Source of the DNA: Arenicola marina
Lineage: Eukaryota > Annelida > Polychaeta > Arenicolidae
Assembly (NCBI GenBank): GCA_964019135.1
Contig: OZ025253.1
Coordinates: 3,128,520-3,192,519, forward strand
Reading direction: 5' to 3'
DNA length: 64,000 bases
In this document: one piece after another, positions 4,701-64,000 of the stretch
Numbering within the stretch: position 1 is the first letter of the stretch
How the letters are laid out: each line of letters opens with the position of its first letter
Notes under the pieces: generated by a model
The model's database searches: none
Told to the model about the DNA's origin: nothing
The model's input: only the letters and a program-made list of their open reading frames with translations
Made by a program: the position numbers and the translations under genes

Positions 4701-7700
4701 ATACCGTGGCCACGGGCCGCGAGTTCAGTTCGGAGGCATAAACTGGCATCAGTCACCCAAGCCCTAGGCAAATCCAGTGATGTCAGGATTCCGGTTTGGA
4801 CTAATTTAATGTTACGATCGAAATCCGGTTAATCGAAAGAAATCTCCCAAAAACAAGCCACTTCCTATGCATCAATTGTATTCGACATCAGTGACTATAA
4901 TAAACAAATGATTTACTTACTTACGGCCCCTGGCTACTTATATCCGCTAAATGATACAAAACCCGCTTCATCGGAAGATTCGGTTTATCGGTAGGAGAGT
5001 TTTCTTTCCGCATGAAACATCTTTAAGATTCCCTTTAATCAGCCGATTAAAGTTATTACGGTCATATAACATTTCCATTACAGCTTGAACTCTCACCTCT
5101 TGGGTTTGAACATGACCCGACTGCCGTCCTCACCTCTTGGGTTTGAACATGTCCCGTCCTCACCTCTTGGGTTTGAACATGACCCGTCCTCACCTCTTGG
5201 GTTTGAACATGACCCGACTGCCGTCCTCACCTCTTGGGTTTGCACATGACCCGTCCGCCGTCCTCACCTCTTGGGTTTGCACATGACCCGGCAGCCGTCC
5301 TCACCTCTTGGGTTTGAACATGACCCGACGCCGTCCTCACCTCCTTGTAATGAGGACATGTTTGAACATGTCATGTTCAAACATGACCCGTCCGCCGTCC
5401 TCAGCTCTTGGGTTTGAACATGACCCGTTCGCCGTCCTCACCTCTTGGGTTTGAACATGTCCCGACCGCCGTCCTCACTTCTAGGGTTTGAACATGACCC
5501 GTCCTCACCTCTTGGGTTTGAACATGACCCGTCCGCCGTCCTCAGCTCTTGGGTTTGAACATGACCCGTTCGCCGTCCTCACCTCTTGGGTTTGAACATG
5601 TCCCGACCGCCGTCCTCACTTCTAGGGTTTGAACATGACCCGTCCTCACCTCTTGGGTTTGAACATGACCCGTCCGCCGTCCTCACCTCTTGGGTTTGAA
5701 CATGACCCGACCGCCGTCCTCACTTCTTGGGTTTGAACATGACCCGTCCTCACCTCTTGGGTTTGAACATGACCCGATTGCCGTCCTCACCTCCTGGGTT
5801 TTAACATGACCCGACCGCCGTCCTCACTTCTTGGGTTTGAACATGACCCGTCCACCGTCCGCATCTCTTGGGTTTGAACATGACTCGTCCGCCGTCCTCA
5901 CCTCTTGGGTTTGAACATGACCCGACCGCCGTCCTCACTTCCTGGGTTTGAACATGACCCGTCCTCACCTCTTGGGTTTGAACATGACCCGTCCACCGTC
6001 CTCACCTCTTGGGTTTGAACATGACCCGACTGCCGTCCTCACCTCTTGGGTTTGAACATGACCCGACCGCCGTCCTCCAGCCGGAAGACGAGCTTGAGCT
6101 GTGTCCCCTGATCTGGAATAGTCTCCAGGCCAACGATGGGTTTTGTCGCCAAGGATTCCACGTAGCGGTCGACCACATCGCTGTCTTCCGGATACAACTC
6201 GTACTGACCGATTTCATTCTGGAATCGCTTCCACAGCGGCAGGCCACCATTTGGTAAACTTGTACTAAAGGCGAAAAAAACACTCGTATATTAATTTGAT
6301 TGAGATCTTTTTGAGACTCGCACCGAGCAGCCATAAGGTATTACGCAATATAATGTAATACCATTTAGGGCCTCCCCGATAGCTCAGTTTGTTAGTCTGT
6401 GCATTGAGTGCTCTGGCCACCTGCGAGCCTAGCGGCAAGTGGGTCGGTTCTTCGAGCCCCGCTGTGGCCATGTCTGTGTGGTCGCAGGATAAAAATCCCA
6501 TTCTTTCATAATCGTTCTTTGCAAAGATTAACATGGCGTGGAACATGGCTCCACGCTCCCCTCCTTCTCTATTGGCGCGATATGACCAGAATCGGTTAAA
6601 GCGTCCTGAATATACAACCAACCAACCAAGCACTACTGCTTCTGCCACAAAAGAATACTGTTAGCATCCGAGTGACAGAAGGCTATTTTTAGCACCGACA
6701 AGCGCCGTGCGTGATCTTGTCTGTTGTTTAGTAAAAGTGCATGCTGTGGTGTAATAGGTTTACCTGTCAGACGTAGCGATATTTAAACAGTCAAGCTTTT
6801 AACATTTACTCGTCACGTTTTCCAATGACAATATGCACCAAAACCAACCACAAAGACAATAGAATGTTAGTATACCGCAAATGATGACTGACACGTTGAA
6901 CAAAAATTACATAGGCCAAATGGTCATTAGAGGACTCCGACATTTGATGGCCGACCGCAAGGTGAGAGGGAAGATTATTTATGATCAATATGGCCGATAT
7001 TCTACCTTCACGTACAGTTAAGTAAGTGTCATTGGCTCGCATATTGACTCTGGTCTTATGTATACGACTCACATAATATTGATGGAATAATATCGTAGAA
7101 CATGTCATGATATCTTCAACAAACATTGTCTTATAAATGTAGCAAAGCCAAGTGGGAACCCGTACGACGTTTATTGCTATCTATATAAGCTTGTTTACGA
7201 TTTATACAACTTTTTATGACTTGCGTCTACTTGGATTATCTATTTTGAAATTGAAATTGATAGTATGTCAGGTGAACTGTCAGTCCCCGGTAAAAGAAAT
7301 ATGTCATTGGGTAGTCATCTGTGATGTCTTTTCCATCCTTTCCGTCAACTTTGTTCTACTTCAAATTTCAATACTATTTGTTGCATTTTTAGAGCATTTG
7401 ACCGTTTTTGCATGTGTTGACCGTATCTGAATCTTGTCAGCCTACCCGAGTTACGGCCAACGCCACAATTTCAGCTACAGGCAACATCATAGATTTTTAC
7501 ATGACATTACTACGATCTAATTATAGCTATGGCAGTTATCTTGCTTTCATCATAGCAGCCTCAACACATTTGTCACGGCCCCTGCACAGTTTCAAAAAAA
7601 TGACGAATAAACTATTCAACTGACACTACCTTCCGCCGTCTTTAGTTGGCCGCATCTGCAGTTACCGGCCCCGTTTGCATACAGTGACTATCTGGACAAC

Positions 7701-13008: not shown

Positions 13009-16000
13009 TACAAGTTCACCAAATGGTGGCCTGCCGCTGTGGAAGCGATTCCAGAATGAAATCGGCCAGTACGAGTTGTACCCGGAAGACAGCGATGTGG
13101 TCGACCGCTACGTGGAATCCTTGGCGACACAACCCATCATTGGCCTGCAGACTATTCCAAATCTGGGGACACAGCTCAAGCTCGTCTTCCGGCTGGAGGA
13201 CGGCGGTCGGGTCATGTTCAAACCCAAGAGGTGAGGACGGCGGACGGGTCATGTTCAATCCCACGAGGTGAGGACGGCCGTCGGGCCATGTTCAAACCCA
13301 GGAGGTTATATGACAGTAGTAACTTTAATCGGCTGATTAAAGGGAATCTTAAAGATGTTTTATACGGAAAGAAAACTCCCCTACCGATAAACCGAATCTT
13401 CCGAGAAAGCGGGTTTTGTATCGTTCAGCGGATATAAGTAGCAAGGGGCCGTAAGTAAGTAAATAATATGTTTATTATAGTCACTGATGTCGAATACAAT
13501 TGACGCATAGGAAGTGGATTATTATGGGGAGATTTCTTTCGATTAACCGGATTTCGATCGTAACAATATATTAGTCGAAACCGGAATCTTGACATCACTG
13601 GATTTGCCTAGGGCTTGGTTGACTGATGCCAGCTTATGCCTCCGAACTGAACTCGCGGCCCGTGGCCACGGTATCACCCTGTGTTGTCATACGCACTGCT
13701 CTGGTTTCTTTAGGGTGTGTGTGTTGCAGGTTCCCCATCGAGCAGGAGAACCCTCCGGATCGCGCCTACTACGACGAGTTCGAGAGGTTCCAGGCGGAGG
13801 TCGCCGCCTTCCACCTCGACAGGTCATTATTGTCGCCATGTTACATATAATATCTGGACCGGTGCTCGTTAAGGGAAAGGGGGTCCAATTTGGGGAGGCA
13901 TGGCCAAATAGAGGGTACAATTTGGGTGGGATGGCCAAAAGGAGGGCACAATTTGGGTCGGGGTGGCCCAAAAGAGGGTACAATTTGGGCCTGGATGGCC
14001 AAAAAGAGGGTCCAATTTGGGACGAGATGGCCACAACATAGGGGGTTTAATTGGGTAGGATGAGCTTTCCAGAAATGCCCAATTTGGTCGGAGTACAACG
14101 GCAGGCGGTGGCTGAGCCGATATCCCCCTTGGCTGATATATATATAGCTATGTACTATGTGTACTGGTACAACAGGTCCTCATACAGCATTCTTTCCATT
14201 ACAAAAATATTTAATTTCCATTCAAATCAAGTTAATGGGATAAACACGAAGTTCGCAATAAATAAAAGGCGAATTGTGAAATTTTTGGCAAAATTGTTGC
14301 ATCTTAAGTATGGCTTTCTCGTTCATTACGTCATCAACATAGTGACATTACACATTACTTCACCTACCAAATTACACAATGTGTCTGAATATTTCTGAAA
14401 GTTATTATTCAGGTAGACAATAGCTATATTTGTAATTTTAGTATCAGTAAATTTACCAAATGCATTAATGCGATAACCCGCCGATCAACAGTTCGTCGTC
14501 ATGGTTACTTGACCGTTTCCACCCTGACCCAGGATCCTAGGTTTCCGTCGCGTGCCGCCTGTCGCCGGCCGAATGGTGAACCTAACGCACGACATCAAAA
14601 GACTGGCTTCCAAGGAACTACGGAAAACTTTCTATCGCTCTGTTGGTATGTACCCTATAAGCTGATAAGCACGATAAGCTCTTATGCTGGAGTACGTGGC
14701 GTTTCGCTGATGTTCTTATGTCGCGCGTGGTATAAGTAAAGGTTTATATTCCATGTTAAAAAAACCCACCTAAATGTATTGATTGTAGCATATGCTTGTA
14801 CGAAAATCGCATCTGTGCTCGCATCACAGGAAACCATATCGTTATATTGCATATGTTATCAGGGCCCCGTAAGTTCGAAGCGGATCGGAACATTTCGCCC
14901 AGCGCCGGGCAGATATCCAAATATTAAGGCGAAATATTCCCTCCAGGTTGCGTCGAACTTACGATCCAAGATGGTTACCACTATGTTTCCACGGGGTGTG
15001 TCAGCAATAACAATGAAGTGATACTTCTTTCCATCCAGCCCACAACATTTGCTTCCACGGCCAGTGCGATCAGTTCTGTTACACGCCGTTCGGGGTCTGC
15101 GGGTCCCCAGACCTCGTGGAGGGGTCGTTCGCTAGTTACCTGCCTTCCCGCTTGGTGGCGGACCGTACCAGCTGGGTGAGCCCCTGGAAGCAGTCTTACA
15201 TCATCGGGCTGGACGCGGCGTGGATGAGCGATAATACCCACTGCGACCAGGTGCGCGCCGAGCATCCTTACAACGAGACCCAGCGTCTTCTCGACGTCAT
15301 GGACATGGCGGCCTTTGACTTCCTCACGGGTGAGCGCTGCTGCAGTGCACCCCTATTATCGCCATGATAACGGCTTGGGTCATGTTTGTTGCACATATGT
15401 ACATATATATGATTGCAACACATATGGAAATGGAGGATTATCGGATAGTAAAGCTTCTGGACGGTCCTAAGAAAAGTATAATATGTTCACGATGGGTTGC
15501 TGTTTGTGGGCCTGCGCGTTACTGCGCCATTGTTTTCGTAATTAGTATTTAATACTGAAGTTAATTCTGCGTTTTGTGCACCAGAACAAAACAACTCTCA
15601 CACTGGCGGATGAATCCGCATTCACCTTAAGAATGGCCTCGATTTTTACCTTTACCATCATTGTACTAAATGATGACCTCTAAACGTAAATGTAACATAT
15701 AGATAGGCGTCATAGCAAATATGAGATTGTAACATGTAATGGGCTTGGTGGTAAATAGAAAAGGAAATCTGCTTCTTTGCCACAGACGCATAGCAAGTTA
15801 CGCGCGACAAGTCAGTTATAATGCGTTTAAGATACGCACATATACCATAGCATGCGTCGTTTTTCATGTTTTGCAGGAAACCTTGACAGACATAACTTTA
15901 ATATCTTCGAGAGATGGGACAACGATACGAGCTTATTCTTATACGACAATGGCAGAGGGTAAGTAAGCGGCAGTTTGCACTGAAACTGTCACGCTCAGCG

Positions 16001-23049: not shown

Positions 23050-23830
23050 GTTTGAACTATCACCTCTTGGATTTAATATGACCCGACCGCCTTCCTCACC
23101 TCTTGGGTTTGAACATGACCCGTCCTCACCTCTTGGGTTTGAACATGACCCGTCCGCCGTCCTCACCTCTTGGGTTTGAACATGACCCGACCGCCGTCCT
23201 CACCTCTTGGGTTTGAACATGACCCGACCGCCGTCCTCACCTCTTGGGTTTGAACATGACCCGACCGCCGTTCTCACCTCTTGGGTTTGAACATGACCCG
23301 ACCGCCGTCCTCACCTCTTGGGTTTGAACATGACCCGACCGCCGTCCTCACCTCTTGGGTTTGAACATGACCCGACCGCCGTTCTCACCTCTTGGGTTTG
23401 AACATGACCCGACCGCCGTCCTCACCTCTTGGGTTTGAACATGACCCGACCGCCGTCCTCACCTCTTGGGTTTGAACATGACCCGTCCGCCGTCCTCACC
23501 TCTTGGGTTTGAACATGACCCGACCGCCGTTCTCACCTCTTGGGTTTGAACATGACCCGTCCGCCGTCCTCACCTCTTGGGTTTGAACATGACCCGACCG
23601 CCGTCCTCACCTCTTGGGTTTGAACATGACCCGACCGCCGTCCTCACCTCTTGGGTTTGAACATGACCCGACCGCCGTCCTCACCTCTTGGGTTTGAACA
23701 TGACCCGACCGCCGTCCTCACCTCTTGGGTTTGAACATGACCCGACCGCCGTCCTCACCTCTTGGGTTTGAACATGACCCGACCGCCGTCCTCACCTCTT
23801 GGGTTTGAACATGACCCGACCGCCATCTTC
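23050..23830. repeat. 37-bp exon/donor minisatellite (copy C)
   Basis: About 21 very uniform units against exon 2 of copy C, each with an exon 2 end and a gtgagg donor on the minus strand. It is more homogeneous than the copy A array, suggesting recent expansion or homogenisation. Confidence 0.92.
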
Positions 23831-31448: not shown

Positions 31449-31615
31449 CTTAATATTGCAAGCATGACCACGAGGTTTCCGCCTGAAATCGTTACCATGG
31501 CGACAACGTAGACGGTAAGGGCCAGCCATCGGGGCTTCATCCATTGTATGCTGGCCGTGATGGCCAAGGGAACAGTATCGTTATCGCTGGTCGTCGAATG
31601 TGAGTACGATGACAT
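31449..31615 (-). CDS. Exon 1 of repeat-loop amine-type GPCR (N-terminus and TM1)
   Basis: The first ATG gives a short extracellular tail with an NDT sequon, then TM1 (about residues 29-52) with the GGNLVV signature of rhodopsin-family TM1. It ends AILR at donor TTAAG/gtacgt (31,448). Phase 2 matches exon 2 at 30,047. The exon structure, with the intron right after TM1, is identical to that of the receptor at 40,396. Confidence 0.85.
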
Positions 31616-32734
31616 CTTCCTCGTTATAATATTATATTAGATTATACACATATTGGGTTACATATCTCCCGTGTGGTGTCTTCTAGCCATAAGCAGAAAA
31701 AAGTCTTCAACTTCATGTCCCCGAAGAGATCTTGTATCGGCTGTACAGCTGCTTGGAGTATATCAAAGCCCATTACTGGACATGTCTGTCTGTGTTCCAC
31801 TGAATGTCACAGCGGGCATGGGTACCGGCACGTTGCAACCAATATGTGGTGAATACACAAGTCCTGCATTGCTTAATTGTAAGTGACGTAAACACATTCA
31901 TTGCGCATGGTGTCACGTTCCATGCATTAGGTACCAGGCAACCGCGATGGAATATATATATATATCACAATGGCCATTGATAGTGGATAGTCTATTGTCA
32001 TATGATCTTTGTTTCATTGTCGAGGTATTTGCTTCGAACGTGATATGCTGACATTTATTGATTTTCTGAACGTCTGGTTGCGACAACAGTAATGCTAGAG
32101 CCCTTTAGTTGGAGGCCAATTTGTAACTCGTGTGCGTAATGTACAACCAAAATGTTTATATTGACACTGCGTAATGATCACAGTTACACATATATTATTT
32201 GTGGTGTTCTTTGGTACACTACTTTTGTAATGTTCGGTGTGTTGTCATGGTGACCATAAGGGTTGATGAGTAGAAGGGAGGGGACTGAACTCACGATGCA
32301 GGAAGGGCGTCCTCTCCGAATACCTCAAGTCTTATTATTTTGATCATTTCAGATCAGGTCACGAAAGCAATTTATCGAGACGCTAAATTGCTTATCGAAA
32401 GGAATATCATTTCAGAAGAAAAAATAACGCTAAGATACAAGTTTAATATATATATGTATTTGATGCTTTGAAAACGTACAACATGAATTGGAACTACGTA
32501 AAAGGACATACATGTAATGATTTGCAATGTGAAAATGATAAAATCCTGTAAAATGACTATATAATTATATAAGCCATGCCAAAGTTGTCAATGGACTCTT
32601 TCATAGACCGTGCCGGGCGGTCCAGGATTAGGAAAGTCGTGGATATGGGGGGGAAGGGCGGGGGGGGGGCGAGGGACAAGGGCGGATCATGATATAACAA
32701 CGTGGTGAATAAGGAGGAAGGAGGGATTGCGCAT
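31616..32734. other. Intergenic region upstream of the repeat-loop GPCR
   Basis: No supported gene. It must contain the promoter of the receptor starting at 31,615, but I see no convincing core element. Confidence 0.4.
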
Positions 32735-35245
32735 TGCGATACATGGCGATACATGGCGATACATGGCGATACATGGCGATACGTGGCGATACATGGCGAA
32801 ACATGGCGATACATGGCGATACATGGCGATAGATGGCGATACATGGCCACATATGGCGATACATGGCGATACATGGCGATACATGGCGATACATGGCGAT
32901 ACATGGCGATACATGGCGATACATGGCGATACATGGCGATACATGGCGATACGTGGCGATACATGGCGAAACATGGCGATACATGGCGATACGTGGCGAT
33001 ACATGGCAATACATGGCGATACATGGCGATACATGGCAATACATGGCGATACACTGCGACATATTGCGATACCTGCCGATACATGGCGACATATTGCGAT
33101 ACATGGCGATACATGGCGATACATGGCGATACACGGCGATACATGGCGATACATGGCGATAAGTGGCGATACATGGCAATACATGGCGATACATGGCGAT
33201 ACATGGCGATACATGGCGATACATGGCGATACATGGCGATACGTGGCGATACATGGCGATACATGGCGATACATGGCGATACATAGCGATACGTGGCGAT
33301 ACATGGCGATACACTGCGAGATATTGCGATACCTGGCGATACAAGGCGACATATTGCGATACATGGCGATACATGGCGATACATGGCGATAAGTGGCGAT
33401 ACATGGTGATACATGGCGATACATGGCGATACATGGCGACACATGGCGATACATGGCGATACATGGCGATACATGGCGATACGTGGCGATACGTGGCGAT
33501 ACATGGCGATACGTAGCGATACATGGCGATACGTGGCGATACATGGCGATACACTGCGACATATTGCGATACCTGGCGATACCTGGCGATACCTGGCGAT
33601 ACATGGCGATACATGGCGATACACGGCGACATATTGCGATACATGGCTATACATGGCGATACATGGCGATACATGGCAAAACATGGGGATACATGGCGAT
33701 ACATGGCGATACGTGGCGATACATGGCAATACATGGCGATACATGGCGATACATGGCGATACGTGGCGATACATGGCGATACATGGCGATACATGGCGAT
33801 ACGTGGCGATACATGGCGAAACATGGCGATACATGGCGATACATGGCGATAGATGGCGATACATGGCCACATATGGCGATACATGGCGATACATGGCGAT
33901 ACATGGCGATACATGGCGATACATGGCGATACATGGCGATACATGGCGATACATGGCGATACATGGCGATACGTGGCGATACATGGCGAAACATGGCGAT
34001 ACATGGCGATACGTGGCGATACATGGCAATACATGGCGATACATGGCGATACATGGCAATACATGGCGATACACTGCGACATATTGCGATACCTGCCGAT
34101 ACATGGCGACATATTGCGATACATGGCGATACATGGCGATACATGGCGATACACGGCGATACATGGCGATACATGGCGATAAGTGGCGATACATGGCAAT
34201 ACATGGCGATACATGGCGATACATGGCGATACATGGCGATACATGGCGATACATGGCGATACGTGGCGATACATGGCGATACATGGCGATACATGGCGAT
34301 ACATAGCGATACGTGGCGATACATGGCGATACACTGCGAGATATTGCGATACCTGGCGATACAAGGCGACATATTGCGATACATGGCGATACATGGCGAT
34401 ACATGGCGATAAGTGGCGATACATGGTGATACATGGCGATACATGGCGATACATGGCGACACATGGCGATACATGGCGATACATGGCGATACATGGCGAT
34501 ACGTGGCGATACGTGGCGATACATGGCGATACGTAGCGATACATGGCGATACGTGGCGATACATGGCGATACACTGCGACATATTGCGATACCTGGCGAT
34601 ACCTGGCGATACCTGGCGATACATGGCGATACATGGCGATACACGGCGACATATTGCGATACATGGCTATACATGGCGATACATGGCGATACATGGCAAA
34701 ACATGGGGATACATGGCGATACATGGCGATACGTGGCGATACATGGCAATACATGGCGATACATGGCGATACATGGCGATACGTGGCGATACATGGCGAT
34801 ACACTGCGACATATTGCGATACCTGGCGATACATGGCGACATATTGCGATACATGGCGATAAGTGGCGATACATGGCGATACATGGCGATAAATGGCGAT
34901 ACATGGCGATACATGGCGATACATGGCGATACGTGGCGATGCGTGGCGATACATGGCGATACGTGGCGATACATGGCAATACGTGGCGAAACATGGCGAT
35001 ACGTGGCGATACATGGCGATACACTGCGACATATTGCGATACCTGGCGATACCTGGCGATACATGGCGATACATGGCGATACATGGCGATACACGGCGAC
35101 ATATTGCGATACATGGCGATACATGGCGATACATGGCGATACATGGCGATACATGGCGATACACGGCGATACATGGCGATACATGGCGATACATGGCGAT
35201 ACTCGGCGATACATGGCGATACATGGCGATACTCGGCGATACATG
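32735..35245. repeat. 10-bp satellite array (gatacatggc) with 1,020-bp higher-order repeat
   Basis: About 250 units of 10 bp. The blocks 32,761-33,780 and 33,781-34,800 appear identical base for base, including variant units such as 'gataagtggc' and 'acactgcgac'. Because the common unit lacks stops in most frames, very long open frames run on both strands (for example 32,557-35,313 minus, 33,393-34,412 plus). They encode decapeptide repeats and are a by-product. The array lies between two receptor genes, about 140 bp from the stop of the second. Confidence 0.97.
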
Positions 35246-35381: not shown

Positions 35382-36273
35382 TCAGCATTTGCAAGTGAGT
35401 ATTTGGCGGAATGCCTTTCTATAAGTAGGCGTGCACCAAGCATAGATAAAGGGATTGACGGCTGAATTACAGTACAGACCCAGGATGAGATAAGGAAACA
35501 TGAACTGGAGACTCGGGTGCTCTTCAATCCTGAATGACGGGGCGGCCAGAAGGGTGCCGACGATATAATATGGCGCGCAAGTCACACCAAAGGCTCCCAG
35601 AATAATAACGCTCATCTTTAATGCTTTCAGGCCTTTCCTCTTCTTCACATGTCGATTATATGTCTGGGGCGCAGGTGGTACAGCATCTACGGCAGCGGAG
35701 TTACCTTGACTTAAGGACATGCCGGTAATACTGACGCTTAATCTCGAGTGCCCCAATTCCGATTTAATCTCGCGGTTTTCTCGATATTTACGGTTGTTAT
35801 TTTGAAAGGCCACCGAGCCTAGAACACGCATATAGATCGCGACGTATATAGCGCATGAGGTTGCATAGGGAATTATAAAAAACGCCGCGGTATTGACGAG
35901 ACTGGTCACATCATCAAAGCCGAGAACGCAGTCGTTGATACTGATTTGGGCCATCAGATAGTATAACACAGGACCGCATAGGCCACAGGCCCATAACAGG
36001 AACACAAAAACAGCCAGTCGGCGCGGGGTTACTATCTGTCTGTAGCGGAAAGGCCGGGACACTGCGATAAACCGCTCGATGGAGATCGCCAGGATGTGAA
36101 GCACGGACGTATTGCAGAGCATGATGTCGGTCAGGACGGCGGCAATACAGATGTCATTGAGAGGGTAGAAGAGCGGGATGATGTTGAGCGGGAGCACCAC
36201 GCAGCCCACAGACAGATCCGTCAGCGCCAGGAAGGCCACCAACATGTTCTTCCTCTTGCGAAGCTTCACAGAT
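35382..36273 (-). CDS. Amine-type rhodopsin GPCR, exon 2 (TM2-TM7)
   Basis: With exon 1 (40,396-40,236) it totals 1,053 nt, 350 residues plus stop. The acceptor is ttgtag/ATCTGTG at 36,274. TM2: NMLVAFLALTDLSVG. TM3: Asp103 at the amine position (LTDIMLCNTS), then ERF (120-122) instead of DRY. Loop 3 is about 70 residues with no repeat. TM6: GAFGVTCAPYY. TM7: Tyr-Cys-Asn-Ser before NPFIYAW, N327. The C-terminus is short and ends in LTCKC, a possible palmitoylation site. It is a close paralogue of the receptor at 27,788-31,615, same strand and same intron position, so the two arose by tandem duplication. Ligand unknown. The open frame runs 14 codons beyond the acceptor into intron, so the upstream ATG at 36,317 is not the start. 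Confidence 0.9.
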
Positions 36274-36429
36274 CTACAACGGTATAAATTAATGATGCTG
36301 AAACGTTTTAGTGTCATCTAGAACTTTGCGTAACATCTGCGACATTGCCTTGAGCGACGATTTATAAAACAATGCATCGGCACCATTGCAACCTCCATTA
36401 GCAAAGCTGTTACACACTAACTTCTGCAA

Positions 36430-39400
36430 AAAATACGACCAGGTTTTTATTTACTTGCCCAAAGACCGCTAAAATTACGACCAGGTTTCCACTTACTCAC
36501 CTGAAGACAGCTAACAATACGACCAGGTTTTCACTTACTCACCTGAAGACCGCTAACAATACGACCAGGTTTTCACTTACTCACCTGAAGACCGCTAACA
36601 ATACGACCAGGTTTTCACTTACTCACCTGAAGACCGCTAACAATACGACCAGGTTTCCACTTACTCACCTGAAGACCGCTAACAATACGACCAGGTTTTC
36701 ACTTACTCACCTAAAGACCGCTAACAATACGACCAGGTTTCCACTTACTCACCTAAAGACAGCTAACAATACGACCAGGTTTCCACTTACTCACCTGAAG
36801 ACCGCTAACAATACGACCAGGTTTTCACTTACTCACCTGAAGACCGCTAACAATACGACCAGGTTTCCACTTACTCACCTGAAGACCGCTAACAATACGA
36901 CCAGGTTTCCACTTACTCACCTGAAGACCGCTAACAATATGACCAGGTTTCCACTTACTCACCTGAAGACCGCTAACAATACGACCAGGTTTCCACTTAC
37001 TCACCTAAAGATCGCTAACAATACGGCCAGGTTTCCACTTACTCACCTAAAGATCGCTAACAATACGACCAGGTTTTCACTTACTCACCTGAAGACCGCT
37101 AACAATACGACTAGGTTTCGACTTACTCACCTGAAGACCGCTAACAAGACGACCAGGTTTTCACTTACTCACCTGAAGACCGCTAACAATACGACCAGGT
37201 TTCCACTTACTCACCTGAAGACCGCTAACAATACGACCAGGTTTCCACTTACTCACCTAAAGATCGCTAACAATACGACCAGGTTTCCACTTACTCACCT
37301 AAAGACCGCTAACAATACGACCAGGTTTCCACTTACTCACCTGAAGACAGCTAACAATACGACCAGGTTTCCACTTACTCACCTGAAGACCGCTAACAAT
37401 ACGACCAGGTTTCCACTTACTCACCTGAAGACCGCTAACAATACAACCAGGTTACCACTTACTCACCTAAAAACCGCTAACAATACGACCAGGTTTCCAC
37501 TTACTCACCTAAAGATCGCTAACAATACGGCCAGGTTTCCACTTACTTACCTAAAGACCGCTAACAATACGACCAGGTTTCCACTTACTCACCTAAAGAC
37601 CGCTAACAATACGACCAGGTTTCGACTTACTCACCTGAAGACAGCTAACAATACGACCAGGTTTCCACTTACTCACCTGAAGACCGCTAACAATACGACC
37701 AGGTTTTCACTTACTCACCTGAAGACCGCTAACAATACGACCAGGTTTCCACTTACTCACCTGAAGACCGCTAACAATACGACCAGGTTTCCACTTACTC
37801 ACCTAAAGACCGCTAACAATACGACGAGGTTTCCACTTACTCACCTAAAGACCGCTAACAATACGACCAGGTTTCCACTTACTCACCTGAAGACAGCTAA
37901 CAATACGACCAGGTTTTCACTTACTCACCTAAAGACGGATAACAATACGACCAGGTTTCCACTTACTCACCTGAAGACCGCTAACAATGCGACCAGGTTT
38001 CTATTTACTCGCCCAAAGACCGCTAAAATTACGACAAGGTTTCGACTTACTCACCTAAAGACCGCCAACAGTACGACTAGGTATCCACTTACTCACCTAA
38101 AGACGGATAACAATACGACCAGGTTCCCACTTACTTACCTAAAGACCGCTAACAATACGACCAGTTTCCACTTACTCACCTAAAGACCGCTACCATACGA
38201 CCAGGTTTCCAATTACTCCCCTGAAGACCGCTAACAATACGACCAGGTTTCCACTTACTCACCTGAAGACCGCTAACAATACGACCAGGTTTCCACTTAC
38301 TCACCTAAAGACCGCTAACAATACGACCAGGTTTCCACTTATTCACCTAAAGACCGCTAACAATACAACCAGGTTTCCACTTACTCACCTGAAGACAGCT
38401 AACAATACGACCAGGTTTCCACTTACTCACCTGAATACCGCTAACAATACGACCAGGTTTCCACTTACTCACCTGAAGACCGCTAACAATACAACCAGGT
38501 TACCACTTACTCACCTAAAGACCGCTAACAATACGACCAGGTTTCCACTTACTCACCTAAAGATCGCTAACAATACGGCCAGGTTTCCACTTACTCACCT
38601 AAAGACCGCTAACAATACGACCAGGTTTCCACTTACTCACCTAAAGACTGCTAACAATACGACCAGGTTTCCACTTACTCACCTGAAGACAGCTAACAAT
38701 ACGACCAGGTTTTCACTTACTCACCTAAAGACCGCTAACAATACGACCAGGTTTCCACTTACTCACCTAAAGACCGCTAACAATACGACGAGGTTTCCCC
38801 TTACTCACCTAAAGACCGCTAACAATACGACCAGGTTTCCACTTACTCACCTGAAGACAGCTAACAATACGACCAGGTTTTCACTTACTCACCTGAAGAC
38901 CGCTAACAATACGACCAGGTTTTCACTTACTCACCTAAAGACGGATAACAATACGACCAGGTTTCCACTTACTCACCTGAAGACCGCTAACAATGCGACC
39001 AGGTTTCTATTTACTCGCCCAAAGACCGCTAAAATTACGACAAGGTTTCGACTTACTCACCTAAAGACCGCCAACAGTACGACTAGGTATCCACTTACTC
39101 ACCTAAAGACGGATAACAATACGACCAGGTTTCCACTTACTTACCTAAAGACCGCTAACAATACGACCAGTTTCCACTTACTCACCTAAAGACCGCTAAC
39201 AATACGACCAGGTTTCCACTTACTCACCTAAAGATCCCTAACAATACGACTAGGTTTCCAATTACTGACCTAAAGACCGCCTACAATATGACCAGGTTTC
39301 CACTTACTCACCTAAAGACCGCTGACAATACGGCCAGGTTTCCACTTACTCACCTAAAGATCGCTAACAATACAACCAGGTTCCCATTTACTCACCTGAA

Positions 39401-40265
39401 GACAGCTAACAATACGACCAGGTTTGCACTTACTCACCTGAAGACCGCTAACAATACGACCAGGTTTCCACTTACTCACCTGAAGACCGCTAACAATGCG
39501 ACCAGGTTTCCACTTACTCACCTAAAGACCGCTGACAATACGGCCAGGTTTCCACTTACTCACCTAAAGATCGCTAACAATACAACCAGGTTACCACTTA
39601 CTCACCTGAAGACCGCTAACAATACGACCAGGTTTCCACTTACTCACCTAAAGATCGCTAACAATACAACCAGGTTACCACTTACTCACCTAAAGATCGC
39701 TAACAATACAACCAGGTTCCCATTTACTCACCTGAAGACAGCTAACAATACGACCAGGTTTGCACTTACTCACCTGAAGACCGCTAACAATACGACCAGG
39801 TTTGCACTTACTCACCTGAAGACCGCTAACAATATGACCAGGTTTCCACTTACTCACCTGAAGACCGCTAACAATACGACCAGGTTTGCACTTACTCACC
39901 TGAAGACCGCTAACAATACGACCAGGTTTCCACTTACTCACCTGAAGACCGCTAACAATACGACCAGGTTTGCACTTACTCACCTGAAGACCGCTAACAA
40001 TACGACCAGGTTTGCACTTACTCACCTGAAGACCGCTAACAATACGACCAGGTTTGCACTTACTCACCTGAAGACCGCTAACAATACGACCAGGTTTGCA
40101 CTTACTCACCTGAAGGCCGCTAACAATACGACCAGGTTTGCACTTACTCACCTGAAGGCCGCTAACAATACGACCAGGTTTGCACTTACTCACCTGAAGA
40201 CCGCTAACAATACGACCAGGTTTCCACTTACTCACCTGAAGACCGCTAACAATACGACGAGGTTT
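36430..40265. repeat. 42-bp minisatellite carrying duplicated exon 1 donor sites
   Basis: About 90 units fill nearly the whole intron of the second receptor. On the minus strand each unit reads as the last 30 or so bases of exon 1 (encoding GNLVVLLAVFR) followed by a consensus donor TTCAG/gtgagtaagt. The exon's own copy differs from the array consensus by one silent base (CTC versus CTG for Leu). A block marked by 'tttctatttactcgccc' recurs at about 38,000 and 39,007, giving a 1,008-bp (24-unit) higher-order repeat. Open frames on both strands are by-products of the 42-bp period. Confidence 0.95.
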
Positions 40266-40396
40266 CCACCGACAGTGATGGCCATGATTGTGACGTAGAT
40301 TGTGAGGGAGAGCTGCCAGGGCTTGATGGCGGAGATGTTGGTGGTCCCCCCCTGAGGCTCTGCGGTTTCATTAACTAAATTATGTTTCGTTTCCAT
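40236..40396 (-). CDS. Exon 1 of second amine-type GPCR (N-terminus and TM1)
   Basis: ATG at 40,396 opens a 26-residue tail with two sequons (NET, NIS). TM1 follows (WQLSLTIYVTIMAITVGGN to LVVLLAVFR), up to the donor CAG/gtgagt at 40,235. Too short for an ORF search, it was found because the adjoining repeats encode its end. Phase 2 fits exon 2 at 36,273. Confidence 0.87.
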
Positions 40397-41596: not shown

Positions 41597-43569
41597 TCAA
41601 TATTGGCATACGTAGCGGTTGTCAATGGTATAGTCGTAGGGGTAATTATCTAGAATACTAATTTTGTTGTAGTTTGCGTATCTATGTATGCTGTGTGTGT
41701 CCATTTTAATGATCGCAAAATGAACGCAAAATCCGCGGTCCGTGTGGATGTTGCACTGGCTGAAGTGCACAAATCATGAAGATTGATACGTATTGTGTTC
41801 ACTATGACGGAAAATCTTCACAAATAAAGCCAGGCAAGTTAATTGTTAAGGTCAAGGTCATTGTAGTGGACCGAAGACATAATCCGGATTTTCGTCTTAC
41901 GTCATTTTCACCCTACGGGTGACGCAATCTCGTTATTTTATTCAATTATTCTAATTTTTAGCAGGTCGAAATACTACTTTATATATATTTTACGTATGGT
42001 TGGGCTTGGACGAGACTGTCAGTCGTATTAGCTGCCAGTGCTATTTATGTCATCTCATTTCTTTAAGGTCTTCGCGGCGTTGCCACTTACTAGTAGGATA
42101 CATGTATATCGTGTGTTCATCCCTTTGGACCGATAAAGTCGGCCTGATGCTCTAACTCTAAGGCATGCGATATACGGTCTACGCCTACATATCACAAGTC
42201 AAAATGTGTGACCTCTCAACCGGCGCTCTCCACTAACACACAAACACCATCCTCAGTCGACACTCCAAAACTCGTTACCAGTGTGGTCAAAGACGAAGAA
42301 ATTAATAAACAGTTCACGGCTGCAAAGTACATTATTTGATAAGGGACGTTCCATGTTCTTTCTTTGTTTCGTTCACAAAACCACATATACACGTTCCCCA
42401 GGTGAATGCATCATAGAACTAGAAACCTCTCCCGTGACGTAGTGATCCGCATAATGTCCTTGATCCTCATTGGTTGATATGAGGCCAGGGGATTTAAATG
42501 TCCACGCCCATCGAGAGAACAATTATGGACGACAATAATGGTGTTTAAGCCTTAACAAAATTGTTTGTGAATTCGTAATTCAATTTTTTTGCTGTTAGCC
42601 AAACTTTTCTTTACCCTCATTGGCACTTCCCTTGCGGCCGGAATTGGCTTCTCCTTTAATCTAGATCCCTTCTTGCCTGCTTGTCATTTGGTTCACCGTT
42701 CATATTCTTTTTAAATTTTATCCTTGGGTTCAACATTTAGTTAATATTATACGGAATGCTAGTTGTCACCAAGGCTTGATCTGAGTGACGTTGGGGCTGA
42801 AGCCCTACTTTACACGGTTCTTACCTCTTCCAAGGTCAAGGCCGCGCCTGCGGCATCTTGAGCGTCACTCCTGGCGATATAACACGGAGTCATTCCGTCT
42901 AATGGTGGAGATTTATTCTGTTGTTATATATATATATATATATATATATTAAAACTTTATAAGGTTTGAGTTAACCGAATGCCCAATGCAGGAATAGATT
43001 GATAATAGTGGTCTATTTCAGTTTGTTGTTTCAAACCGCGGAAAATGCCGGCCCGCTCACTTGTAAATAGTACTTTTGGGATCTTGGCATCGCTGCTAAG
43101 CCACGGTAACTGACGTACGATGACGTACGTCAGGACTTATACTTGACATAATTACAGCAGTTGCAGACATGAAAGAAACGACCATTATCGATGAATACTC
43201 CGATAGCTGCAATCATATGTGATAAACAGTGCGTAAAATACGACAGCCATTAGTGGCCTAGCAACATACATTGTCTCTCCATGGACATAATGTAGCCTGG
43301 GAAATGGCCCAATGTATCTTTATGTGACGAGGTGTGTCCATGAGCTGGGTTGAATTGTTTGGTGCCCGCCATGCGTGGTGATTGTCAAGCCTCGTCACTC
43401 GCAGTTAACACTTACAAGGGTAGCAATCAACCTGAATGTGTCCCATTGGAATTCCCAGGCGTGCAGTTTGCATTGTGATATTAATTTGATCTCCACAAAA
43501 TGGCTCTGGTCATCGGGTTTGCGTAAATAATACAACTCCCACCTTGAGAAATAGTGGTACCAGGAAATA
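41597..43569. repeat. Segmental duplicate D1 (intergenic)
   Basis: Matches 54,917-59,390 in the same order and orientation, beginning at 'tcaatattggcatacg' and ending at 'gaggaaata'-type sequence. The second copy is longer because of insertions (55,080-56,005, 56,467-56,873, 57,393-58,534, 58,716-58,913). No gene recognised in it. A TA microsatellite lies at about 42,928-42,949. Confidence 0.88.
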
Positions 43570-46500
43570 GACATCCAAGTAATTCTATACATCTAGGGGC
43601 TTTAAACTGCCAGGGTGTGATGAGGAACGCTCCATATGTGTCACAGTTACTAGTAAGCGAGAAGCTCGATATATTGATTTTGTCTGAACATTGGCTCTTT
43701 CCTGACAATCTAAACTTTCTGAACAGTGTAGAATGCGGTTATTCATCTCATGCCATTGCCGAAGGGAGTCTCGATCCCCTGGATCCTTATCGACGAGGTA
43801 AAGGTGGCGTAGCCATAATGTGGAGGGATAATCTAACACCATTTGCGTCAGTTATTAACACTGGTAGTGATAGAATTATTGGAGCCTCTTTTGACCTCGG
43901 TAAACAAAAGTTTATAACTGTCCTGGGTGTATTTTTACCGTCAAGCAATTGTAGCATCGACACTTTCAGTGAATGTTTGGATCATGTATGTGATTTATAC
44001 GTGAAACACTCTGTGAGCTCACGAGTGATTGTACTAGGAGATTTCAATGCTCAAATTGAGGGACCTAGGTGCTCATGCGAGAGCAATTCTCGAGGGCGGT
44101 TACTCAGGGTCTTTTTAACCAGGTTAGAACTCTGCTCTGCTACAGTCCAAGTTTTTTCCTCCGGGCCGAGGTATACGTTCTGCCCGTATGATGGTGGGCC
44201 TCAAACGTTAATAGACCACGTCTTGCTTCATAACAACGAATGCGATGTAATACTCTCAAGTAAGGTGTTGGATGATCACGAACTAAACTGCTCGGATCAC
44301 CTACCGGTTGTCGTAATGTTAAACACACAGCTCTGGTGCTCTGATAGTCCGAGTTCTGATTCACCGAACCCGAGCCAGTCGAGCGCGGGCGACGTGCCGC
44401 GTTTAAAGTGGAAGGGGCGAAATCAGCATCATATCCGAGAAACCTACAAAGAGGAGTTAGAGAGGTACTTACGGCCCATTACTCAAACAGATCTCGATCA
44501 ACCCACTGCAGTGGATGAGTATTATTGCCAACTAATCAGTCACATGAGACATATCCATCGAAACGGTCTCGCAATCTCGATTTCTGCCCTTTCTGAAACC
44601 CTTCTGGAAGAATGATATAGATACGCTACACAAAGAGATGAAGTGTGCTAGGCAGGTGTGGATTTCTGAAGGTAGGCCTCGAGATGCACTCAGCCTGAGC
44701 TTTTGTTCATACAAAAAACTGAAGCGTACTTTTAGACTTACAATGAGGAGGTTGCAGCATGAGCATGACGATATTTTTTACAAAGAATTAGAGCATCAGG
44801 CTTGTGTTGATCAAAACAAATTCTGGTCCTTGTTGAGAAGGGAAAACAAGAAAACTACCATCTCTCGCAACATACAGGTTAATGGTACTGTCTATAGAAC
44901 TCCAGGTCCAGGTTTGGACAAATTACTTCGCTCAGCTGTACTCTGAGAGTGAAGATAATGAGACGGGGTTTGACGCGGAATATAAGACCAGGGTTACCCA
45001 ACAGGTGCGCGACATACGCGAACATGCTAAACTAGACAAAGACGATATTTTAGAGGAATTTGACTGTAATGATATCAGCAATGCGATAAAAGAGCTAAAG
45101 TTGGGGAAAAAAGGTGGCCCGGACGGCTTAACAGATGAGCATTTGCAATATGCTGGCCCGTCCATGGTAATTTGTTTAACAAATATGTTTAATGCAATGT
45201 ATGTAATGGGGTATTCCCTGATGCCATGAAGGGAGGAAACATATACACCCTGTACAAAGGGTCTAGAAAGTATGACGATGACAGAAAGAACTACCGCGGC
45301 ATATCTCTTCTGCCCGCCATTACGAAATTATTCGAACAGGTAGTCCTAAATAAGATTAAGAAATGGACTCGAGCCCAAAATATATCATTTCCATCGCCGA
45401 ATCAAAATGCTTACCAAGAGTCTCTCTGTAGCCTGCTGGCATCTTTTGAACTACAAGAATGCATTAACTATAACACTGACCGTTTTTCAAAGGTCTTTCT
45501 GTGCTTTCCTGACTCATCCAGCGCGTTTGACACGGTCTGGCACGACGGGCTTTTTCTTAAATTATATCGGTTTGGAGTGAAGGGACAAACCTGGTTATTA
45601 CTATATGAATCGTACCAAAATATGACAGCTAATGTAGTTGTGAATGGCATGAGGTCGAAAAACATAGATGTACGGCGCTCCGTGCGCCAGGGCTCAATTT
45701 TGGGACCATGGTTATATATGTTGTTTGTACACGAGCTAGCGACGGCTCTGTGCACCCCATGTTCAGGCGCCAGCTGTGGTCAAGTTCCATGTGGCGGTAT
45801 ATTGCAGGCCGATGACATTGCTGTCACGGCGCTGACCATTAGTGCCTTGCAAGAGCATGTCTCCTCGTGCGAACAGTATGCACGAAAATGGCGGTTTAAA
45901 TTCAACCCGGTAAAATCAAAATTGATGGTTTACGGCGAAACAGCCAATGCTAAAAGGAAACTTGCCCCCCGTAGATCACTATTGTTAGATAGCGAGCCAG
46001 TCGAAGAAATTATAGACTTTACTCACGTGGGTATACGGTTAAATTCACTAAATATATCAGTTGAGAGAACGAGCGATGCAGCCTCTAAACTGAGAAGCGG
46101 TTTGATGACACTAGTAGGCTATGGTGTAAGACCCGCGGAACTCAGCTGTGTCACTGCCGTGCGATTATATAGGACTGTCGTTTTGCCTCGTGCGTTGTAT
46201 GGGGCTGAGCTGTGGTGGAATTTAAGCAGGGGCGAGTTAGCTCAGTTGGAGCGGGCTCATTCATTTTGCCTGCGATTTATCCAGAATTTTCCTAGAAATT
46301 GTAGTGCAACTATCACTCGATGCATGGTAAATGATCTCAGTTTAGAATGTACGATCGACGTCAAAAACTTACAGTTCCTGGGACGCCTATGCCGGCTACA
46401 TCTTAGCAAGCTGGCTACGGTCGTCTTTGTTGAGCGACTCTTTCAAAACGCAAATGGCCAGTGTACAGGTATTGTTAAAGATTTAACTAATGTGTTATCG

Positions 46501-47282: not shown

Positions 47283-49115
47283 CCCCATCAGCTACATTCA
47301 GACAGATCCACATCACCATCAGCTACATTCAAACAGATCTACATCACCATCAGCTACATTCAGACTGATCCACATCACCATCAGCTACATTTAAACAGAT
47401 CCACACCACCATCAGCTGCATTCAGACAGATCTACATCACCATCAGCTACATTCAGACAGATCCACACCACTATAAGCTACATTCAGACAGATCCACATC
47501 ACCGTCAGCTACATTCAAACAGGTCCACACTACCATCAGCTATATTCAGACAGATCCAAATCACCATCAGCTACATTTGAACAGATCCACACCACCATCA
47601 GCTGCATTCAGACATATCCACATCACTATCAGCAACATTCAGACAGATCCACATCACCATCAGCTACATTCAGACAGATCCACATCACCATCAGCTACAT
47701 TTAAACAGATCCACACCACCATCAGCTACATTCAGACAGATCTACATCACCATCAGCTACATTCAGACAGATTCACATCACCATCAGCTACATTCAGACA
47801 GATCCACACCACCATCAGCTACATTCAAACAGATCTACACCCTCCATCAACTACATTCTGGCAGATCCACATCACCATCAGCTACATTCAGACAGATCTA
47901 CATCACCATCAGCAACATTCAAACAGATCCACATCCTCCATCAACTACATTCAGACAGATCCACATCACCATCAGCTACATTCAGAGAGATCTACATCAC
48001 CATCAGCTACATTCAGACAGATCCACACCACCATCAGCTACATTCAAACAGATCCACATCCTCCATCAACTACATTCAGACAGATCCACATCACCATCAG
48101 CTACATTCAGACAGATCTACATCACCATCTGCTACATTCAGACAGATCTACATCACCATCAGCTACATTCAGACAGATCTACATCACCATCAGCTACATT
48201 CAGACAGATCCACACCACCATCAGCTACATTCAGACAGATCCACATCACCATCAGCTACATTCAGACAGATCCACATCACCATCAGCTACATTCAGACAG
48301 ATCTACATCACCATCAGCAACATTCAAACAGATCCACATCCTCCATCAACTACATTCAGACAGATCCACATCACCATCAGCTACATTCAGACAGATCTAC
48401 ATCACCATCAGCTACACTCAGACAGATCCACACCACCATCAGCTACATTCAAACAGATCCACATCCTCCATCAACTACATTCAGACAGATCCACATCACC
48501 ATCAGCTACATTCAGACAGATCTACATCACCATCTGCTACATTCAGACAGATCTACATCACCATCAGCCACATTCAAACACATCCACGTCACTATCAGCT
48601 ACATTCAGACAGATCCACATCGCCATCAGCTACATTCAAAGATATCCACATCACCATCAGCTACATTCAGACATATGCACATCACCACCAGCAACATTCA
48701 AACAGATACACATCACCATCAGCTACATTCAAACAGATCCACATCACCATCAGCTACATTCAAACAGATCCACATCACCATCAGCTACATTCAGACAGAT
48801 CCACATCACCATCAGCTACATTCGGACAGATCCACATCACCATCAGCTACATTCAGACAGATCCACACCACCATCAGCTACATTAAAACATATCCACATC
48901 ACCATCAGCTATATTCAGACAGATCCACATCACCATCAGCTACATCAAAACAGATCCACATCACTATCAGCTACATTCAGACAGATCCACATCACAATCA
49001 GCTACATTCAAGCATATCCACATCACCATCAACTACATTCTGGCAGATCCACATCACCATCAGCAACATTCTGACAAATCCTCATCACCATCAGCAACAC
49101 ACTGGCAGATCTACA
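47283..49115. repeat. 31-bp minisatellite downstream of sulfotransferase copy 1
   Basis: About 59 units, plus strand 'cagatccacatcaccatcag' plus 'ctacattcagA'-type. The minus-strand unit matches, in length and sequence, the last codons and stop of the adjacent sulfotransferase gene. Variants with 'cctccatcaac' recur in blocks, showing higher-order duplication. Long open frames here (for example 47,577-49,178) are not genes. Confidence 0.93.
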
Positions 49116-50040
49116 TCTCCACCAAGGTCCCTTTTGTACCCACAGCTCGCTACGCCACTGTCGAAATCCACGCCGTAACCGAAAATCTGAAAGTCTTTTT
49201 GGTACGCATCAAAGAGACGTGATATTAGTTCAGGGAATAACCTCTTCAGAGCCCGAATAGTTTTCGTCGTCTCCAACATTTTCTCCTCCGCGGTCATGGA
49301 TCGCTTTTGATTCATGGCTGGCAGAACGTTCGGCTTCCCATCCGGCCCCGGCAGCCGACGCAGCAACTCCGGCATGTCATGAACCATGGTCTCCATCTTT
49401 AGGACGGCGTCGTACTTAACTTCGCAGGGATGACATTGTTGGGAAAATTGTCTCCAGTGTGCGTTGTGGAACCAGGAGCTGTGTCCCAGAGACACGAGCC
49501 GTAGGAAGTCGCTGAGATCCCCCTGGAATGAGCCGTTCCAGGCCTCGGGGTACTGCTCCAGTGTGAGCGGGTTGTAGAATGGTCGCGGCAGCTTGAGCGT
49601 CTTATTGTCCACTTTATCGGCGTACGCGGACAGGAGACGATCGATCGGATGCCTCACCACGATGAACTTGTGGTAGGTCTCCAGTCGAGTCGCCTTCTCC
49701 GTCTCCGTGTAGTCGGTCAAGTATGTGAGTCCGCTTCGTATGATGTTGTCATCGTTGTGCAAGTTGAAGCCTGAGTCCACCATGGCGAGGAAGTCCGCCA
49801 GCTTCATGTTCCTTGCGCTGGCGTGCATCAGGCTCTTCATCGTGGTGCAGGCCACTTTGGGGATTGGGCAATACATCACCTTGCTCACGTCGTCCACTAT
49901 TATAAATTTGTGGGCGCTTTGGTCCTTTATTTGGACGTCTGTCCAGTTGTTTTTCGCGCACATGTGACTGATCCATTTCTGTCGTTCCTCCGCAGAACAG
50001 GTCCTGACTGACGACAGGGGGGTCACTCCCTGGACCAGTT
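49091..50040 (-). CDS. Carbohydrate sulfotransferase (Sulfotransfer_2/HNK-1ST type), exon 2
   Basis: With exon 1 (50,826-50,649) this gives 1,128 nt, 375 residues plus TGA. The acceptor is tgttgcag at 50,041 and the phase is consistent. The PAPS-binding motifs are visible: 5'-PSB CPIPKVACTTMKS (about residues 117-129) and 3'-PB VVRHPIDRLLSAYADK (about 187-202). These place it in the CHST8-14/HNK-1 sulfotransferase superfamily of type II Golgi membrane enzymes, which transfer sulfate from PAPS to sugars. Acceptor glycan unknown. The C-terminus GGDVDLPVCC and stop form the first unit of the adjoining 31-bp minisatellite. A second copy begins at the right window edge. Confidence 0.9.
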
Positions 50041-61564: not shown

Positions 61565-63427
61565 TGCATTCAGACAGATCCACATCACCATCAGCTACAT
61601 TCAGACAGATCCACATCGCCATCAGCTACATTCAAACAGTTTCACATCACCATCAGCTACATTCAGACAGATCCACATCCCCATCACCTACATTCAGACA
61701 GATTCACATCACCATCAGCTACATTCAAATAGATCCACATCACCACCAACTACATTCAGACAGATCCACATCACCATCAGCTACATTCAAACAGATTCAC
61801 ATCAAGACCAGCTACATTCAAACAGATCCACATCACCATCAGCTACATTCAGACAGATCCACATCACCATCAGCCACATTCAAACGTATCCACATCACCA
61901 CCAGCTACATTCAGACAGATTCACATCACCATCAACTACATTCAGACAGATCCACATCACCATCAGCCACATTCAAACTGATCCACATCACCATCAGCTA
62001 CATTCAGACAGATCCACGTCAGCATCAGCTACATTCAAACAGATGCACGTCACCATCAGCTACATTCGGACAGATCCACATCACAATCAGCTACATTCAG
62101 ACAGATCCACATCGCCATCAGCTACATTCAAACAGAGCCACATCACCATAAGTTACATTCAGACAGATCCACATTTCCATCACCTACATTCAGACAGATC
62201 CACATCACCATCAGCTACATTCAAACATATCAACATCACCATCAGCTACATTCAGACAGATCCGCATCACCATCAGCTACATTCAGACAGATCCACATCA
62301 CCATCAGCTACATTCAGACAGATCCACATCACCATCAGCTACATTCAAACGTATCCAAATCACCATCAGCTACATTCAAACGTATCCACATCACCATCAG
62401 CTACATTCAGACAGATCCACATCACCACCAGCTACATTCAAACAGATCCACATCACCATCAGCAACATTCAGACAGATCCACATCACCATCAGGTATATT
62501 CAGACAGATCCACATGACCACCAGCTACATTCAAAGCTACCCACATCACCATTAGCAACATTCAGACAGATCCACATCACCAACAGCTACATTCAGACAG
62601 ATCCACATCACCACCAGCTACATTCAGACAGATCCACATCACCATCAGCTATATTCAAACAGATCCACATCACCACCAGCTACATTCAAACCGACCCACA
62701 TCACCATCAACAGCATTCAAACGGATCCACATCACCATCAACTACATTCAGACAGATCCACATCACCATCAGCTACATTCAAACAGATCCACATCACCAT
62801 CAGCTACATTCCAACAGATCCACATCAGCATCAACTACATTCAGGCAGATCCACATCACCATCAGCTACATTCAAACAGATCTACATCACATCAGCTACA
62901 TTCAAACAGATCCACATCACCATCAGCTACATTCAAACAGATCCACATCACTATCAGCTACATTCAGACAGATCCACATCACCATCAGCTACATTCAAAC
63001 AGATCCACATCACCATCAGCTACATTCAGACAGATCCACATCACCATCAGCTACATTCAGACAGATCCACATCACCATCAGCTACATGCAGACAGATCCA
63101 CATCACCATCAGCTACATTCAGACAGATCCACATCACCATCAGCTACATTAAAACATATCCACATCACCATCCGTTATATTCAGACAGATCCACATCACC
63201 ATCACCTACATTCAAACAGATCCACATCACTATCAGCTACATTCAGACAGATCCACATCGCCATCAGCTACATTCAAACATATCCACATCACCATCAGCT
63301 ACATTCGGACATATCCACATCACCATCAGCAACATTCAAACAGATACACATCACCATCAGCTATATTCAGACAGATCCACATCACCATCAGCTACATCAA
63401 AACAGATCCACATCACTATCAGCTACA
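61565..63427. repeat. 31-bp minisatellite, copy 2 main block
   Basis: About 60 units of the same 31-bp repeat as 47,283-49,115, with similar variant units (for example 'caactacattctgg' near the sulfotransferase end after the LINE). Open frames within it are not genes. Confidence 0.93.
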
Positions 63428-63756
63428 GGTTGTGTAGCGAGTGCGGGTTGTTAGATGACGAAGTCTACTTTGTTCTTGTATGTCGCTTGCATGATAATCT
63501 CAGAGAGAGCTTAATCCCACCGTATTATTGGAGACTACCAAATAAAGATAAATTTTTAGCACTAGTTATGTCACAGAGCACGAAATTACAGAACAGATTG
63601 TCTGAATATGTTTATCTGGCCAGCAAGATGAGAGAACCTGAATGACGTTCCAGTGTACTAATGTATGAACCCGCCACATGTCATTATGTGTATTGCATCT
63701 TTTCAACACGAGGGCCTCGGGCTCATTGTTGCTTTGAAATAAACTAAACTAAACAT
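63428..63756 (+). mobile_element. LINE 3' fragment inserted in minisatellite
   Basis: Frame 63,430-63,645: LCSECGLLDDEVYFVLVCRL, then RESLIPPYYWRLPNKDKFLAL. This is a typical LINE ORF2 C-terminus with a 3' UTR and an AACTA-repeat tail at about 63,737-63,755. Array sequence resumes at 63,757. It is 5'-truncated and in the opposite orientation to the fragment at 59,664. Confidence 0.82.
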
Positions 63757-63874
63757 ACATTCAGACAGATCCGCATCACTATCAGCTACATTCAAACATA
63801 TCCACATCACCATCAACTACATTCTGGCAGATCCACATCACCATCAGCAACATTCTGACAAATCCTCATCACCA
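63757..63874. repeat. 31-bp minisatellite, copy 2 final units
   Basis: The last units grade into the sulfotransferase C-terminal codons, exactly as at 49,020-49,115. Confidence 0.85.
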
Positions 63875-64000
63875 TCAGCAACACTCTGGCAGATCTACAT
63901 CTCCACCAAGGTCCCTTTTGTACCCACAGCTCGCTACGCCACTGTCGAAATCCACGCCGTAACCGAAAATCTGAAAGTCTTTTCGGTATGCATCAAAGAG
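63875..64000 (-). CDS. Carbohydrate sulfotransferase copy 2, C-terminal part (cut by window end)
   Basis: Encodes FGYGVDFDSGVASCGYKR, then LPECC and TGA at 63,877-63,875. Only one residue (Glu for Val) and a few bases differ from copy 1 at 49,091. The rest lies beyond the window. It shows that the sulfotransferase was part of the segmental duplication. Confidence 0.85.
   Translation of the reverse strand, partial: LFDAYRKDFQIFGYGVDFDSGVASCGYKRDLGGDVDLPECC

Follow-up and report, generated by a model that had tools for sequence, protein, structure and literature searches.

A very large mirage-type minisatellite, built of an exon end and its splice donor, in the first intron of a predicted GPCR gene of Arenicola marina

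Mirages are minisatellite-like tandem duplications of exon/intron boundaries that are known from lancelet globin genes, the name itself going back to work on Adh3; according to the excerpted text of that report, both exon boundaries are affected in the globins, somatic instability occurs at Adh3, and RT-PCR suggests that mirage-bearing transcripts are spliced regularly (PMC3087553). PGBD5 and TnC have been added to the lancelet genes concerned (PMC3902484, as excerpted). In human UBC, dual-specific AGGT sites are used within tandem repeats, and the excerpted text has its authors reasoning that splicing can remove such expansions, which hence do little harm (PMC10809524). The array described here, which fills most of the first intron of a predicted G-protein-coupled receptor gene (GPCR-A), is a very large mirage, and thus of a kind already in print. 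As in the lancelet genes (Adh3, the globins BflGb6 and BflGb9, TnC and PGBD5), its unit lies across an exon/intron boundary; unit sizes are similar (10-72 bp at Adh3), and copy number in the lancelet is unstable (PMC3087553 and PMC3902484, as excerpted). The two differ in scale, the BflGb6 haplotypes that are described having 3 and 6 units against 91 units and 3.8 kb in GPCR-A. Unlike the lancelet mirages, as far as the excerpts of those two reports go, the present genome also has arrays over stop codons. With the UBC repeats the GPCR-A array shares tandem AG/GT junctions (a slash marks a junction throughout), yet the UBC units are described in the excerpted text as coding monomers that can be retained, whereas the translated GPCR-A junctions carry an in-frame stop (PMC10809524).

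The window, that is, the whole stretch of 64,000 nucleotides analysed here, corresponds to C6:3128520-3192519 of a genome of 867 Mb, with 18 chromosome-size contigs among the first 20. Two exons on its minus strand, between 40396 and 35382, encode a predicted rhodopsin-type receptor of 350 aa (Table 1), and the closest solved chains to the joined protein are those of aminergic receptors (5-HT1B, E 1.1e-27). Exon 1 ends within TM1 at CAG/GTGAGTAAGT; the first intron base is 40235 and exon 2 is predicted from 36273, the boundary being a prediction from frame, homology and splice consensus. Of the 3962 bases of intron 1, 3804 belong to the array (96%, ~3.8 kb) and 158 are non-array, and the open reading frame is unbroken only with use of the first donor. 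Just downstream of the gene lies a 10-bp array (window 32732-35245; TATCGCCATG on the minus strand, 251 copies), a word also present upstream of the receptor's start codon, and LINE-like endonuclease and reverse transcriptase frames are present at window 43548-46821.

Table 1. Positions in the window of the genes and arrays discussed in the text
Feature	Position	Strand	Remarks
GPCR-A exon 1	40236..40396	minus	ATG at 40396; ends ...GNLVVLLAVF + CAG; phase 2
42-bp mirage-type array	36432..40269	minus	91.5 copies; first 34 bp exonic, remainder fills intron 1 from the donor (40235)
Intron 1 remainder, non-repeat	36274..36431	minus	runs to predicted acceptor ..CCGTTGTAG
GPCR-A exon 2	35382..36273	minus	TM2 to stop; 7tm_1 E 1.1e-33 for exon-2 frame
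GPCR-B (paralogue) exon 1	31449..31615	minus	coordinates by eye; intron position and phase as GPCR-A; donor AAG/GTACGTG, no array on donor
FAM20-like copy 1, 37-bp donor array	5092..6077	minus	CCCAAGAG/GTGAGG; apparent native intron resumes GTGAG/AGTTCAAG
FAM20-like copy 2, 37-bp array on equivalent junction	13196..13306	plus	3 units only
FAM20-like copy 3, 37-bp array on equivalent junction	23120..23824	minus	19 units
Sulfotransferase 31-bp array	47285..49121	minus	begins over last codons and stop codon; ORF 49091-50074
Second sulfotransferase copy, 31-bp array	61567..63905	minus	interrupted at 63428-63755

The first-pass annotation of this DNA described about 90 tandem donors derived from the exon 1 end, and this description holds: TRF, run on the window, reports a period of 42, 91.5 copies and 93% matches over 36432-40269, and unit-by-unit cyclic alignment resolves 90 full units and one partial unit. 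The range then given, 36430..40396, takes in exon 1 together with the repeat of exon end and donor, and is to be narrowed to the TRF limits for the array proper. The unit consists of the end of exon 1 plus the donor and so straddles the exon/intron boundary, and its consensus is matched exactly by 15 of the 90 full units. Within the exon overlap it departs from the GPCR-A exon only in a silent change of CTC to CTG, as had been stated earlier; the paralogue at ~31.5 kb also has CTC. The donor 9-mers (n=91, the true donor being the first) comprise 48 CAGGTGAGT, 34 TAGGTGAGT, 3 TAGGTAAGT and 6 others, and 85 of the 91, again with the true one counted, read YAG/GTRAGT. The predicted U1 pairing energy of the true donor is reached by 48 of the 91 donors and, by the same prediction, by none of 3957 GT sites on the minus strand outside the array, in agreement with the view of the intron as an array of U1-like sites. 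In 600 translated bases, each of the 11 junctions is followed by an in-frame TGA; its presence had been pointed out before, but it is no added coincidence, because AG/GTGA reads R-stop wherever a GTGA donor opens a phase-2 intron.

These repeated AG/GT junctions, present in most units, might be thought to regulate the gene by serving as dual-specific or recursive splice sites or as a sink for U1. The share of donors that equal the true one in predicted U1 pairing and the UBC precedent point in that direction, but such an active role appears very improbable. There is no clear sign of extra conservation in the donor columns: among the 42 rotations of the unit, GTGAGT ranks 6th and GT 14th for fewest changes. 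For the donor 9-mer the rank is 37th when changed units are counted, an effect mainly of a single C/T site at -3, and 10th when kinds of change are counted. A function of the array is thus without support. Moreover, the unit looks by eye like a poor acceptor, with few pyrimidines before CAG and an inner AG, and copy number at a FAM20-like junction described below spans 3 to 28. Departures from the consensus are unevenly spread: counted from the exon, units 1-10 average 1.0 changes, units 21-30 average 4.0 and the final twenty units 1.3. A lag of 24 units reveals that a block of ~1 kb was duplicated. Instability driven by hairpins was considered and rejected, since two units, folded as DNA, do no better than single-base shuffles (sense -4.2 vs -5.6 +/- 2.2; antisense -2.4 vs -4.1 +/- 1.9).

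A dispersed satellite had been named as the observation that would speak against an exonic origin, and it was checked for in the genome. The search with two 42-bp units gave 49 scored matches, a lower bound since very common words were skipped, and all lie on contig C6 at 3.16-3.22 Mb, within ~52 kb: the GPCR-A array accounts for 43 and a decayed-looking paralogue for 4, and the other 2 are short (58 bp) and lie elsewhere, the one inside the window being a two-unit relic with no exon. Tandem arrays are very abundant in the sampled genome, as would suit a satellite or an assembly artefact that holds a donor-like word by chance. This explanation is nevertheless largely contradicted, and we give it hardly any weight: the unit was met, within that lower bound, only near this receptor family, its register fits the exon edge, and unrelated genes carry unrelated units of equivalent design.

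The paralogues also bear on the age of the array. GPCR-B has an intron at the GPCR-A position and in phase 2, with a donor free of any array, so that the array is younger than the intron; for the same reason, intron 1 of GPCR-A was rejected as a newly gained intron. The potato RdRp gene reportedly gained an intron by tandem duplication over AGGT (PMC4974935), likewise a tandem duplication with splice-competent sequence in a gene, as far as described; there an intron was created, whereas in GPCR-A a pre-existing one was lengthened. The decayed-looking paralogue, ~9 kb beyond the window, has 7.8 (about 8) units; next to it, no exon 2 could be found. A TGG shared with its flank was tried as the founder microhomology of the GPCR-A array and discarded, as that flank is unlike the GPCR-A intron and no exon 2 turned up there; the founder junction of GPCR-A is unreadable, the intron after the array being unlike the paralogue's flank. 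Within GPCR-B itself, the third intracellular loop contains a 27-bp coding repeat (TADTSGQRM-like), present in ~50 copies that keep the reading frame (window 28097-29451, minus strand); a relative with ~7 copies lies at 11099-11295.

A second, unrelated gene in the window with equivalent seeding, also claimed by the first-pass annotation, could be corroborated: the exon end and donor of a FAM20-like gene are repeated in a 37-bp array. The exon was identified through PDB sequences (4kqa, E 5.4e-6; FAM20C 5yh3, E 2.2e-5); Pfam returned no match for its peptide or for five other ORFs. Rfam, at gathering thresholds, also gave nothing. The intron at the array is in phase 2 in both this gene and GPCR-A. 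TRF counts 28.1, 3.0 and 19.1 copies in the three window arrays and 20.0 and 27.1 in two neighbouring gene copies. The array of copy 1 stands between exon CTG/GAGGACGG and the apparent native intron GTGAG/AGTTC, with GAG shared; at the array ends of other genes the shared bases are TGG (sulfotransferase) and 1 bp (a CLC gene, see below). FAM20-like copies 1 and 2 adjoin an inverted duplication, 96% identical, at window 2-4497 and 13910-18436.

The third gene with such an array in the window differs in the boundary concerned. Its ORF matches Sulfotransfer_2 (E 3.3e-37), and its 31-bp arrays, of 59 to 72 units in four gene copies, begin over the stop codon, without a donor. No stop-codon array of this kind was met in the literature searched on mirages and tandem splice sites, which is weak evidence of novelty.

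Taken together, the 42-bp array is most probably a mirage-type minisatellite that arose by slippage or microhomology-mediated duplication and was tolerated with the upstream copy intact, no function being needed. A short tandem duplication of the last ~32 bases of exon 1 and ~10 bases of the intron, as the unit suggests, would have produced a second copy. Unequal exchange or slippage may then have raised the number to 91 units, larger blocks being duplicated as well, as the visible 24-unit repeat indicates. The array would have persisted through the intact first copy of exon end and donor, since splicing from the first donor would remove the surplus as intron, a course with which the RT-PCR evidence from the lancelet agrees. 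Use of the first donor in GPCR-A is not guaranteed, as splicing often favours the downstream member of a pair of equal tandem donors. Equivalent tolerance may apply where a reading frame ends, since surplus copies beyond the first stop codon would fall into the 3'UTR. Array length varies among gene copies, from 3 to 28 units in the FAM20-like gene and from 7.8 in the decayed-looking paralogue to 91 in GPCR-A, all these being comparisons of paralogues.

For the genome at large, we sampled 18 stretches of 10 kb (L015-L032), spread rather than random, each taken at 5 Mb of its contig apart from a single C6 stretch at 15 Mb, and counted arrays of period at least 12 and at least 4 copies after dropping overlapping TRF rows. 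Tandem arrays make up 78,053 of the 180,000 sampled bases (43%). The sampled stretches have a GC content of 49.6%, and 4 of the 18 are array from end to end. A donor score of at least 9 was found in 4 of 37 arrays against 1.5 expected from shuffles or, with a split array counted once, in 3 of 35 non-duplicate arrays against 1.3, which is no clear excess. The first of these three arrays, on C9 and thus on a different chromosome from the window, repeats a CLC exon end plus GTAAGT (71-bp unit, 32 copies; PF00654, E 9.9e-6; PDB 8iab, E 1.2e-7); the second (L032, 53 bp) has the look of an exon end with no family match, and the third (L020, 139 bp) no recognisable exon. Genome-wide enrichment of donor arrays, whose absence the first-pass annotation had named as a further refutation, was probed with a pattern of three CAGGTGAGT at gaps of 12-42 bp, which gave 2660 matches against 830 for the reversed pattern, a single control, but such counts overstate independent cases, since the matches listed came from only three clusters on C1, and the sample itself shows no clear excess.

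Across the sampled array ends there were 100 candidate frames, or 93 without L020 and short or simple ones, and ten were scanned with Pfam. One array (L021 on C7, 304-1525, 33 bp, ~37 copies) begins over a frame end and stop, ..ELQDTRV-stop, with neither a family match nor a donor; two others start 4 bp past the predicted donor of a second CLC exon (E 8.7e-6) and 20 bp past that of a BACK-domain exon (E 5.1e-19). With the window included, nine exon-adjacent arrays were picked by inspection, and eight of them (GPCR-A, FAM20-like, sulfotransferase, two CLC, BACK-domain, L021 and L032) are at the 3' edge of coding sequence (binomial p 0.04); the single one on the 5' side, an array of 18-bp units, stops 39 bp short of GPCR-B exon 2. 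Given so small and hand-picked a sample, the excess serves as a lead rather than as a result.

The preponderance of 3' edges could also mean that the donor region is itself the trigger, with transcription-linked instability (R-loops, U1-bound nascent RNA or replication-transcription conflict) starting duplication at exon/donor junctions. Sense-strand GC skew is in part consistent with this, with values of +0.22 to +0.62 for the arrays of the GPCR-A, FAM20-like and sulfotransferase genes, +0.32 for the one next to the BACK-domain exon and +0.11 for L021, against -0.15 to 0.00 in five coding pieces. Positive skew in 5 of the 8 exon-edge arrays (0.11 to 0.62) is a feature that the neutral account does not predict. 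However, the two CLC arrays give +0.01 and -0.18 and L032 gives +0.04; with values near zero or negative in 3 of 8, skew was rejected as a general cause. Two of the eight 3'-edge arrays begin over a stop codon and two begin within the intron, strong donors are as scarce among the sampled arrays as stated above, and the globin mirages duplicate both exon boundaries (PMC3087553, as excerpted). The stop-codon arrays, in four sulfotransferase gene copies and one sampled stretch, fit tolerance rather than a donor trigger and weaken the donor-specific or R-loop mechanism proposed by the first-pass annotation, which we now regard as unlikely. The same globin mirages, whereas they tell against that mechanism, also count against pure tolerance, which favours 3' edges.

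Returning to slippage with tolerance, we tentatively suggest that minisatellites in this genome may enter genes preferentially at 3' coding edges, donors and stops alike, where duplication is harmless. Introns and 3'UTRs would then grow by kilobases from copies of exon ends, and selection against coding damage would decide where a large part of the repeat DNA within genes begins. Natural genes in which dozens of nearly identical donors follow one another offer a direct test of spliceosome choice. Selective tolerance at the 3' coding edge is suggested as a simple rule for minisatellite entry and intron lengthening, and one open to genome-wide counts wherever a mirage-rich genome has been annotated.
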